A DNA stretch of 64,000 bases from Rhabdophis nuchalis. Taxonomy: Eukaryota; Chordata; Lepidosauria; Squamata; Natricidae. Positions 41,809 through 47,800 of the stretch are shown one piece after another; positions within the stretch are counted from its first letter, which is position 1; the number at the start of each line of letters is the position of its first letter. The position numbers and the translations under genes are program-made. The notes beneath the pieces are model-generated. The model ran no database searches. It was not told the DNA's origin and saw only the letters and a list, made by a program, of their open reading frames with translations. The DNA lies in assembly GCA_039707465.1 (NCBI GenBank), contig CM077645.1, positions 147,308,503 to 147,372,502 on the forward strand, given 5' to 3'.

Positions 41809-44800
41809 ATGATGAGATCAATGGTTTCATGCATCTTTGATGCTTAGATTCTAGATATTCTATAGGGGATTATAAAATACCTTCTAAAACATTGTTATAA
41901 TCAGATGAGTAAAATAGTTACTTGTAAAAGGAAATTTCTGCGACAGCACGCTTGAACTGAATAGTCTTGGATCAATTTTAGAATTTAGAGCCAAATTATA
42001 TATTACCTGTAAATCCATGTAGTGGTACTCTGATTTTCCCATTACGTGGAAAAGGTACTTAAGGAAGGGATTATTTCAATTTGCAACTGATTGTTTCAGA
42101 ATATAAAGAGACAAACCAACAGAATTCATGTAGGATAGTGTTCTCTACTTAAAGAGTTTCTGAAATCAACTAGATATGTAGGCTGTTGTTTAGAAACAAC
42201 CCCCTTTTTCTTTGGCAGTAAAGTGAGATTGAACTAAAGACTGTATTTTCCCCCCTTTCCTTTGTGTTAAACATTATAAAGTAAATTATATGTTAAATCC
42301 TCTTTTTTTCACTGTGATTTGGAATACATATCCTACAATTACTTATTTTCTAAAGTATCTGTAGCCTTTTTGCCATAATTATGCTCTGAACTGTTTGCTT
42401 AAAATAATCTTGAAATTAGTCAAAAGATTACAGTATTACTTTGTTTTTGGAAGACAATGCTAAATCAGAGCACTAGTGCAATTGTCACAGGATTACAAAA
42501 ATGCATACAAACTTAATGTTCTTGAAAATGCACTATTTTTATTAGAGATTTCACCCTTTTATATCAGATATAATTATAATTACTTATGGTTATAGTTATA
42601 TATTTAGCCATAGCACCAGAGAAATTGACTTTCTCAACTACTACGTATGTCCAAGAAGTTGTGATGGAAAGTGAACTACATTCCCTAACCCAGTGGCGTA
42701 GCGTGGGTTGTCAGCACACCGGGCAAGGCAAGTAATTTGCGCCCCCTGGTGGAGCGCGGCGGGATGACCCGGACGGGGCCCCGGGTGGCCGGGAAGCGGG
42801 TAGGCGCCTTGGTCATGGTGGTGAGCCGGGTACTGAACTGGTTGGGCGTCCGAGAAGCGGCGGCAGTGGCGGCGGCGTCTGTGCCGGGCGAGGCGGTGAG
42901 CTCCCCACTCTTGGGCGGCGTGGTGGGCTGCTTGGAAAGGAAGAAGGGGTCCTGCTCGATGCCTTTGGAATCCATGAGCTCAGTGGGCAGGTACTCTTGC
43001 ACGGACCCCACCACGATCCACTTGAGCAGCATCAGGCTGAGCCCCAGGCCCACGAAGCCGATGAAGAGGGGCACGACGCAGAGCCACGTCTGCTGTCGGT
43101 TCCACACTAGGCAGTCGCCGCAGCGCACCTCCCGCCCCGCTGCCTCGGGCCCTCCATCGCCCGCCGCAGGGCCCCCGCCCGCCGCCGCCCCCTCCTCGGC
43201 AGCGGCTGCGGCACCCGGCGGCGAGGCGACCCCTTCGCTCATCCTTCTCGGCGCCTTTCTAGCCCTTCCCCGGGGGGAAGCAGCGGCATCGAGGACGGGG
43301 AGGGCGCAGCATGCGGAGCGGCGGGGAAGCGAGAAACAGGAAGGGGGGCGAGGAGGGGTGCAGGAAGATCCGACGGCGCCCCCCCAGATGTTGCGCCCGG
43401 TGCGGCCGGCCCCCCCTGCACCCCCCACGCTACGCCTCTGCCCTAACCACATGGATGCTTGTGAAAAGAAGGATATTTCAGTTCTCCATTTCTCATGAAA
43501 CTGCCAATTTATTTAATGGTTGAGTTGCCACTGCAGGTGGGCCTCACCATTAGTGCATGAAGATATCACCTCTGTGAACATATATAAGCCATTATTAGGA
43601 TCACCAAGACTCCATTTTCTCTTTGCCTCACAATGTATAAACTGAGGCAAAGAAAAAAAGGAGTCTTCTCTTTTTATTTCTGCTATTTCTATGCAACTCT
43701 ATTATAAAATAAGTTTGATCAGTGTACAACTGCATTATACAATCAGCAGAGGTTGGTCATAAATAAAAACATAACATCCCCCATATGCTGTTTTCCAAAA
43801 TTAAAGTGCCATCTATTTCTGTAACTTAAGGAACTTTTGTAACTTAAGAGGAGATCTGGTTCTTATATGTGTGGCAGTGGTGGGTTACGACCAGTATACC
43901 CCGGTACAGGCGTACCGGTGCCTGCCGGGAGCACCAAGTAATATTCCGGTACGGTGTTCCAGAGGACCCACTCACCCGCCCACGCTCCTTACTGGTATTT
44001 GAAGTTTTTGGGGCTTCCGCACAGGCGCATAGAGCGCACGGTGCCTGCGCAACGCTCCGAGCAGCTGGAGCGTCACAGAGACGTTGCAGGCGGTAAGTAC
44101 GCATGCACACATCATATAGTGGGCGCCCGGCCCTGTACCGGTTGCACCAGGATCCGGAACCCACCACTGATGTATGGGCAAGCTATGCCATAGGAGAACT
44201 ACCATATTTTAGGAAACCCTGCTACACAGAGTCCCTGTAAAATCCTTTGGAGATGGGCTCCTCAACAGGATTTCCTCTCAGAACTTGCAAGATGAGCTTA
44301 CACTCATATTCATCTGGGGAAAAAATTGTTTTGGAGATAGCCAACTTGCACCATGTAGGGCTTTAAAAGTGACGGTCAACACCTTAAATCAAGGGTCCCC
44401 AACCATTTTGGCACCAGGGACCGGTTTCAAGTTAAAAAAATTCCGCGGACCGGTGGTCATGGCTCAGCTGGCGTAGAGGAAGAGCGGGGGGAGGGGGAAC
44501 AAGCGCGGGGGCGAGTTGGCTCACTCGCCCCTCTCAGGCCCCCAACGGCGTGAGCGGCCGCACCTGTGCTCTCCTACCCCGTTGCGCACTATGCTCAGGG
44601 GGCTGCCCCCTCCTTCCTCCTCCTTCTCTCCCTCCTCTAAGAGTTGCGCCGCTCACTGCGGCCCAGTTCCTATCAAGCCACGGACCGGCACCGGTCCGCG
44701 GCCCGGGGGTTGGGGACCCCTGCCTTAAATTACATTTGGAAGTTGGCTGCATGTTAAATTTGGTGGTCTTCAAGGGCAGCCCCATGCAGTGTTTTGGGAT

Positions 44801-47800
44801 CGAACTGTTGAGAATTGTAAAAAATCTGACTATCCATAGCACCTTCTGGCCGGGGAAAGGTTGCAATTGGTATATACAAGTTAATTATGCAAAGGATATC
44901 CAGGCTATGTTTTCTACTTGTTGTTCAAGCAGGAGCTATGAGTTCCAAAGAACTGTCAAATTATGAGCCTATTCAGCCCAAGGGAACATGACCCCATTCA
45001 AAACTAAAGAAGATATCATATACCTCTGGTCAAAAGGTATCTGTCCACAGCCTGTCTGTCTTGCAAGGATTTCCTGTTCCAACTTACCCAAACCCTAACA
45101 GCCTCTGGGCACCAAGTCAGGCATCTCAATTGCAAGATCTCTCCAACCAGAGGTTAAGAGGTTTTATCTACATATTGATACGGTATTTACCTAGCTCCAT
45201 GTAGACATTGAAAAGTAGGGGCAGAAGATTGAACCCTGTTGTAGTCATAAAATAGAAAAATTGACTTTTCTCTTCACCCACCATCTCAGACTGTTATCAG
45301 TTGCTTAGGAAGGGGATAAACCAGTGATGCATGTTGACTCCTACTCCAAATCGTTGTATACGGAAAGTTATTATGGCCAACATAACTGAAGATCAGGACA
45401 ATTACTCTTCCATCCTAGTTTTGCCAAAGATTCACCTGAGTTCCCTGCAACACTGTTGAATGTGATAAGTTTCTCCTATATTAAATTACTTTTATTTACC
45501 TGTTTTTGCTAGCTTGTGCCACATCCACAAAATTTTTATATAAGCGGTACATCTTTGACACTGTGCCAAAACTATGGCAGGGGGAAGAGTTCAGGCTGAG
45601 AAAAATGTTGTTCAATGACAGCCAAGAGTAGCAATTCTGAATTGCAAAAAAATCTGAACAACTTTAAGAAGGCAACCAATTTTGCAGTCCAAGAGGCTCA
45701 TTCTGAGTTCCCCTTATTGTCACACCAGAAATGGTTAGGTTTTGTTTCAACAAAACAATGAAAGGGCAAATGATTTTTTTTTTTGTCAAACTGCAGCTAA
45801 TTCAACTGAATTTTTGGGATGCAATATTTTTTTCACAGGCAAAACAGATACTCAGTTTGCAGCCCTCAGATTCATACCCATCAGGAAATTCTGGTTACAG
45901 CTGTCTTGGCTGACTGTTCACGGTGAACAGTATGAAAAGAACACATCATACAATATACCTCATTGCACAAGAACCAATTTACATTTGGTGCATAACTTGC
46001 ACAAGAACTTAGGTACAGTATTACATGGCTGCATAGGAACTGGTTCAGAAACCAGTTCAGAGACATATTCTGTGACTATAAAATCTATGCTAGCTGCAAT
46101 CTGTGTATCAATACAGACTCTTTGCAGGCATGCATCTTTGATATGTTTAAATAATTGAATCAATAGGGGTACATATGTCTAGGTTAGCATACTCCAAGTT
46201 TATGAAACTTCAAGCACTTACAATTATACATCGCATTGCCTGTCCAAAGTCCAATAAGAGTGTAAAAAATGCAACATTGTCCCTGGAATATACACTATGC
46301 ATGGATGGAACAAAGATATGAAGTCACTTTATGCTTCACATTTAGTACAGTACTCCCACCATCAACGGAATGGCCATCTAAAGTGCATTGTGTTGTTATT
46401 GTTGAAGTGCATTTTGTTTCTTACTGTTTCACAGCAAGATAAAGTTTATTTATCTGGCTTCATACTGTCTAAGAAGGGAGATTATTGTGCGCTGTTTCTA
46501 GTGATATCTGTTTGCATGGTGTACCATGCAGAGACAATAGGGCACCTTATCCTAAAGTGGACAAATATAGCTATAGGACAATGGGCTGAGAATCAGGCTC
46601 TGGGTGACTTAAATACTTAGGAGCATTGCTGAGATGGAATTTATAAATATGTACTGCCAAATAAGCAATAGAGATCATGTTTGCTCCCTGGATGTATTTG
46701 TAGATTCATCACAACACAGCAGCCAAAAACTGATGGGGAAAAAATAGGACCCTTTAAAGTACTGTTTCTCAACCTTGGTGACTTTAAATCCTGTGGACTT
46801 TAACTCCCAGAATGCTGGCTATGCTGGCTGGGGGATTCTGGAAGTCCACAGGACTTAGTCGCCAAGGTTGAAAAATACTGCTTTAAAGTAAAGAATGAAC
46901 ATATTCCGGTGTCTCATCTTCCTAATTATTACCTCTATTGCTTCGGCAGAGCTAAACTGGCCTAGTGTAACAATATTATCAAATGTATTTATTTACTGCA
47001 TAAAAATAAGCTGTTTTAAAACCAAGATTCCCCCAAAATCTGGATTATTAAAGGGATCATCCTTATATCTATTATCCAACTCTTTCACTATACACAAGGA
47101 GAGAGAGATACACAAACGATAGCTTTGAGCATTGTTTTTGAAACCCACCATAAATAACAATTTCAATATCATACAAAGTTTTACTGTGATGAAATACTAA
47201 CAGTTGAGTAGAGTCCAAAAGGATCTTGATGCTACAATTCCTGACTCCAAAACACTTATTTAGTAGGTATACTTAGGAAACTTTTTCCAGCAGGCAAGCA
47301 CGTTTTAAAACAGTGAAAATCTCAAAGAATTTCACATTACAGCTTTGGAATATGCAGATGCTGTGCAACAGACTGTTTCTGCTTATTTCCCAATACAAAC
47401 TTAAGAAACACACTTACTCGAACCTCTTAGTAACTTTTAAGTCAGCTCTTAAAAACACCCTTCCAGAAAATACTTATTTTCCCTTTACTCCACGTTATGG
47501 TGGAAATTTTTTTTTTAAAAAAAAAATGACAGCCCCTGCTTTAACGCCCGGCATCTTTGCAAAGGGGAAACCCTTATTTTCAATCACCGCTGAAATCCAA
47601 CATTTTAAAATAGATGGACTACCACCATCTGTCAGAAAGGGTGTGGGGTCTCCTGCTTGGGCGGCGGGGGTGGGGTGGACTAGATGACCTCCAAGATCCC
47701 CTCCAACTCTGTTAATCTGTATCTGCTGAAAATCAAGACAGCTGGGGACGATGGGCATTGTAATCCGATATATTTAGAAAGCACCGATTCGGGGAAATCG

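Follow-up and report, generated by a model that had tools for sequence, protein, structure and literature searches.

Within a 64,000-nucleotide stretch of the Rhabdophis nuchalis genome (contig CM077645.1, positions 147,308,503 to 147,372,502; hereafter the window), positions 42691-43440 form a non-autonomous hAT-type transposon of 750 bp, which carries the 5' end of the neuregulin-3 gene, NRG3 (Table 1). An earlier note, made from the letters of the window, had described inverted termini matching at 16 of 17 bases, a perfect 8-bp duplication and, between the ends, an open NRG3 N-terminus read from its ATG together with 5' flanking sequence; all three features were recovered. The element opens with CAGTGGCGTAGCGTGGG, and its closing bases form the inverted near-complement of this 17-nt terminus (16/17). 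Both flanks carry a perfect copy of CCCTAACC, which directly abuts the element ends. Apart from two transposon ends of 57 and 65 bp, the element consists solely of NRG3 sequence, with 133 bp from upstream of the ATG and 165 codons. The minus-strand ATG opens a reading frame of 185 codons, of which the final 20 are transposon and target-duplication sequence rather than NRG3, and the stop codon lies just beyond the element. Boundaries were set by comparison among insert classes, which placed the ends at consensus positions 1-57 and 686-750 and the insert at 58-685. The GC content within the element is 70-71%, versus 41% for the whole window.

Table 1. Features of the NRG3-carrying element (coordinates in the window).
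Feature	Position	Strand	Remark
Target site duplication, left copy, 8 bp (CCCTAACC)	42683..42690	no strand	abuts element
Transposon left end, 57 bp, holding 17-bp terminal inverted repeat (42691-42707)	42691..42747	+	common to family
NRG3-derived insert, 628 bp (133 bp upstream of ATG and 165 codons)	42748..43375	-	consensus identical to native C3:111992826-111993453
Open reading frame, 185 codons and stop (NRG3 residues 1-165, then transposon-encoded tail)	42685..43242	-	ATG at 43242; stop within left target duplication
Transposon right end, 65 bp, holding 17-bp terminal inverted repeat (43424-43440)	43376..43440	+	
Target site duplication, right copy, 8 bp (CCCTAACC)	43441..43448	no strand	abuts element

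Copies of the element and the native NRG3 gene

A DNA search with the window element over its own genome (1.92 Gb, 348 contigs) yielded at least 39 copies of full length, all ending in the same terminal inverted repeats, the window's included; this count is a lower bound, as it comes from scoring the best 40 of 1,390 first-look candidates. The other copies are 91-97% identical to the window copy. When the flanks of all 39 were examined, 36 showed a perfect 8-bp duplication, while the remaining three matched at 7/8, 6/8, and 1/8. With this many full-length copies sharing the same two ends, and perfect duplications around nearly all of them, the inverted termini and the duplication in the window are not due to chance. 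Two copies, L002 and L018, have about 600 bp of flank in common at 99% and therefore represent one insertion that was duplicated, which leaves 38 separate insertions among the 39 copies. The copy with the 1/8 match, L008 (C4:79374943-79375789), is a full copy immediately preceded by 97 bases from the start of a second one.

The same search returned a single 97-base piece and one partial match, L009, over bases 49-687 at 98%. L009 is the native NRG3 locus. This gene was found on contig C3, the chromosome of the window element and about 35 Mb from it, and the window is thus not the NRG3 locus. With a Thamnophis protein as query, exon 1 was placed at 111992959-111993732 and the last exon (residues 508-675) at 112929469-112929972 on the same strand, about 936 kb apart. 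Where the captured part ends, the native sequence continues: it covers the remainder of exon 1 and reaches a TGA, which is preceded by a splice-donor-like GTAAGT. In a large protein database, the exon-1 protein matched pro-neuregulin-3 of many vertebrates, most closely that of Thamnophis elegans and T. sirtalis at 96-97% (best 120 of 602 matches); neither Pfam nor the solved structures identified it.

Over the whole 628-bp insert, the consensus of the copies shows zero differences from the native donor, and the encoded protein agrees with host exon 1 at 165/165 captured residues. These include valine 159, which is missing from the T. elegans, T. sirtalis, and Pantherophis proteins. As the insert protein matches the host rather than these relatives, NRG3 was probably captured within the host's own lineage. 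Donor and transposon share 1 base (T) at one junction and 2 bases (GC) at the other.

A 31-mer from NRG3, with up to three mismatches allowed, was detected at 61 sites genome-wide, namely the native gene and 60 others, the latter comprising the 39 full-length copies and 21 more. The one of these 21 that was read, L079, is a shortened copy, and the other 20 may include further full-length copies. An NRG3-like site at C4:31079865-31080542 matches residues 1-218 at 80% with three stops, and possibly holds a longer captured piece than other copies.

Relatives of the element and other captured host sequence

The left terminus recurs well beyond the NRG3 copies. A left-end 30-mer with up to three mismatches was found at 2,280 sites genome-wide, and its reversed control at none. 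A sample of 60 elements was taken from the first 61 two-mismatch sites listed, all on contig C1, minus L039, an NRG3 copy that had already been counted; five further sites on the list, which have 0 or 1 mismatch and include the window's, lie outside this sample. In total, 55 of the 60 elements could be delimited, 53 of them with perfect 8-bp duplications, and these grouped into 14 clusters by their shared insides. The largest were clusters B (14 elements) and C (10), followed by a cluster linked through parental right-end sequence (7, including L073 and L062), F3 (6), a second NRG3 class (5), an L043-related cluster (3), F6 (3), and seven singletons, L079 among them. The clusters are partly dependent: one piece is common to F3, F6, and L086, and parental left sequence is common to several. 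At its ends, the window element matches classes B, C, and L043 exactly and others almost exactly, and the L052 class has 50 bp of the left end. In L079 and L070, the right end retains roughly 10-15 bp of its usual length, yet the target duplications are perfect. This points to two possibilities: a very short right end may be enough for movement, or the elements were trimmed once inserted.

One long member, L073 (3,396 bp), combines the same left end with a right end that carries a small deletion, and is flanked by perfect target duplications. It contains an open reading frame of 519 residues with a DUF4371 domain (PF14291, 56.3 bits) and, after a stop, one of 167 residues with a Dimer_Tnp_hAT domain (PF05699, 48.7 bits). 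Both domains score above the curated Pfam cut-offs, and L073 is likely related to the source of the transposase. Among the 60 sampled elements, no transposase copy with a fully open frame was found. L060, a 3.4-kb element with the same ends, was considered as an autonomous element and rejected, as it contains no open reading frame of more than 119 codons.

The family thus shows 8-bp duplications, short terminal inverted repeats, and a same-ended relative with a hAT transposase, all of which are hAT features. The target consensus of hAT elements is nTnnnnAn for the Ac type and nnnTAnnn for the Buster type. Among 88 duplications, 14 fit the former and 5 the latter, with a weak preference for T at position 3 and A at positions 6 and 7.

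The second NRG3 class (N2, with the window's class as N1) takes in about 580 bp ahead of the ATG along with about 30 codons, and an internal deletion has removed about 134 bp. Two undelimited elements, L076 and L077, also belong to it, bringing N2 to 7 of the 60 sampled elements. That N1 and N2 were both trimmed from one large capture, such that NRG3 was loaded only once, is an alternative we take seriously while leaning against it. Trimming does occur in this family, as seen in L079, an N1 element that has been shortened and whose right end is truncated, and in L048 and L097, which contain just a portion of what L043 carries. The two classes also overlap by about 224 bp in the donor. However, they differ at both junctions, and each reaches beyond the other in the donor. 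In addition, the seven-copy consensus of N2 differs from the donor by 6 substitutions and one gap, of which 3 substitutions and the gap fall in the stretch common with N1, and these 3 substitutions are missing from N1. Finally, the union of N1 and N2 was seen in none of the 55 delimited elements.

A different host gene was recognized in L043, which carries about 197 codons of FEZF2 with two stops in frame, plus upstream sequence. The N-terminal coding sequence occupies element bases 230-822, and the protein is 88% identical to Notechis FEZF2 over 98%. Searched against the genome, bases 230-1080 gave two long matches, one being L043 itself and the other, at 95%, C4:50091714-50092547, along with nine short weaker ones. 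The C4 locus is the native FEZF2 gene; there the frame continues where the captured segment stops and reaches the beginning of the zinc-finger region. From base 1077 onwards, the L043 sequence also occurs in L048 and L097, and these two have the same target duplication; they may be one insertion that was copied.

The L052 class (C1:32578696-32579296) has 6 full-length copies when the best 40 of 947 candidates are scored. Bases 50-294 match C7:1273798-1274042, and bases 301-480 match C4:141689972-141690250 in two pieces. Neither donor match shows transposon ends among the matches listed, and both are likely native loci. The insert is therefore probably a chimera, with its parts drawn from unlinked host loci at C7:1.27 Mb and C4:141.69 Mb.

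The inserts of B, C, and L062, with a GC content of 61-74%, may be host captures as well. No donor was found for B, where the right flanks of 20 of the 40 listed matches all show the transposon end, nor for C, where 16 of 17 flanks from the 40 listed do so and the remaining one, L126, shows only its start and then a run of C. For L062, likewise without a donor, all 40 of the 40 listed full-length matches are copies at 93-100%. Across the inserts examined, GC content ranges from 41 to 74%; those of the short elements are GC-rich, while some long members are not. The two named donors, NRG3 and FEZF2, both contribute the 5' ends of genes, suggesting a bias in capture toward GC-rich gene starts.

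Age, reading frame, and origin of the family

The NRG3 copies diverge from their consensus by 0.90% at non-CpG positions and by 5.0% at CpG positions. In 24 of the 39 copies the ATG is kept and no stop occurs up to the element end, although three of these shift frame near the tail; the other 15 have lost the start or contain a stop. The absence of stops had been attributed to either a recent event or selection. Recency held up, as the open frame follows from the youth of the family, whereas no sign of selection was found at the family level; an individual copy might still be under selection. Expectations derived from the family's own mutation spectrum, in which changes common to subfamilies are counted more than once, were 222.5 non-synonymous changes (243 observed), 129.2 synonymous changes (115 observed), and 6.4 stops (4 observed) in the coding part. 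This pattern fits the neutral expectation. The idea that selection keeps the frame, with the copies making a useful membrane protein fragment, could draw on the copies without stops, on the 185 codons encoded by the window copy, and on the exact match to the transmembrane 31-mer at 56 of the 61 sites. It is nonetheless very unlikely, given that non-synonymous changes are not depleted, synonymous changes are not enriched, and over a third of the copies have lost the start or gained a stop. Most likely, the NRG3 reading frame is a passenger.

Taken together, the data are best explained by a non-autonomous hAT element that carries a copy of the host's NRG3 5' end, likely acquired through template switching or gap repair and likely multiplied by the transposase of its relatives, a reading to which we assign a probability of roughly 0.93. 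The NRG3 5' end would have been acquired inside a transposon copy, with the switch of template occurring at the 1-2 bp of shared sequence, and full-size relatives would have supplied transposase in trans. A route through segmental duplication or a processed pseudogene, with coincidental hAT-like ends, is barely credible: the shared flanks of L002 and L018 and the intronless captured part of the window's class, which alone would be compatible with an RNA step, speak for it, but the copies terminate in transposon ends, the perfect duplications differ between loci apart from L002 and L018, in other pairs the common flank is no longer than 118-177 bp, at 79-85%, and the N2 class extends far upstream of the NRG3 ATG. 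Three points do count against capture and trans-mobilization of a hAT element as formulated here. The capture step is a reconstruction and not an observation, microhomology of 1-2 bp is often expected by chance, and the two domains of L073, the only member with a transposase that was studied closely, are separated by a stop.

The earlier note had proposed that a non-autonomous hAT element copied NRG3 exon 1 DNA and then moved. Copies with the same ends and their own duplications, along with a native gene elsewhere on the chromosome, bear out capture and movement. Neither of the findings named there as refuting was made: the site is not the NRG3 locus, and the left terminus recurs about 2,280 times. 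The picture of one event did not hold, as the element belongs to an amplified family whose lineage also carries other host pieces.

Comparison with known systems and genomic setting

In plants, cut-and-paste transposons commonly capture gene sequence. The family described here fits a Pack-type hAT: its ends are fixed, it carries sequence from several donors, and it includes trimmed derivatives and a likely chimera. As in transposons with terminal inverted repeats (TIRs) that are classed as Pack-TIRs, a host fragment lies between transposon ends, its parental gene lies elsewhere (NRG3; FEZF2 for L043), and the non-autonomous element moved after capture, as the 38 separate insertions attest. Pack-TIRs are already known in animals, and what is new is the copy number and the repeated loading. 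Tan et al. 2021 reported 370 Pack-TIRs in 100 animal genomes, 208 of them with hAT elements; four were multicopy, and nearly all cases were single-copy (PMC8277862). Multicopy examples in frog include one with three insertions and another with five copies, and multicopy Pack-TIRs tend to capture GC-rich sequence (PMC8277862, Discussion). Pack-hAT-N8_XT of the western clawed frog carries 291 bp of the CAPSL 5' untranslated region (PMC8277862). The snake family resembles these animal Pack-TIRs, and Pack-hAT-N8_XT in particular, in being a hAT TIR transposon with a 5' host gene segment, distinct duplications, a donor elsewhere, and junction microhomology. Unlike the Pack-TIRs in that survey, it has at least 39 full-length copies and 60 sites for one insert, and several donors within one transposon lineage.

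Similarities extend to plant Pack-MULEs and other Pack-TYPE elements as excerpted from PMC8903248, which likewise hold gene fragments between fixed ends in multiple copies, with a likely two-locus chimera here, and to the GC-rich sequence captured by Pack-MULEs (as cited in PMC8277862). In contrast to plant Pack-TYPE elements, the host here is a vertebrate, the ends are of hAT type, and the duplications are 8 bp long. In Drosophila Ssk-FB4, as in the snake, a captured host gene was amplified by transposition and is still readable; there, four copies were described and protein function and positive selection were argued, whereas the snake family appears neutral and has far more copies (excerpts of PMC8277862).

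Within the excerpts of PMC8277862, NRG3 occurs only as strings inside journal DOIs, and the stem "captur" is absent from those of two snake papers (PMC8303610 and PMC6609765), the latter of which reports hAT fragments in a gene array. Among the open-licence PMC matches listed on gene capture, Pack-hAT, and snakes, no title or abstract opening reports a snake hAT/NRG3 family.

This family of elements probably picks up copies of gene starts and disperses them. A bolder interpretation, to which we give about even odds, makes one snake hAT lineage a vertebrate counterpart of the rice Pack-MULEs. In this view, the lineage would load CpG-rich 5' gene ends again and again (NRG3 on two independent occasions, FEZF2, and others), trim and recombine what it has loaded, and distribute it in tens to hundreds of copies, any of which could serve as a new promoter or first exon. 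The family also shows how copies of the starts of developmental genes can come to be sown across a vertebrate genome. One genome here holds a young family, an insert identical to its living donor, many copies, several donors, trimmed derivatives, and a transposase relative, which makes the capture mechanism directly testable. Gene predictors might take the NRG3-carrying copies for neuregulin genes.

As for the setting of the window element, we take minus-strand segments at about 37.3, 36.8, 33.8, 27.2, and 25.2 kb, picked out by motifs in a translation scan, to be ECI2-like. By this reading, the element sits 5' of a likely acyl-CoA-binding exon of ECI2. The earlier assignment of the target site to ECI2 intron 1 is plausible in view of these segments, while exon 1 of ECI2 was not located. 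Adjoining the element, positions 43870-44900 of the window form a GC-rich stretch (51-58%), perhaps another repeat.
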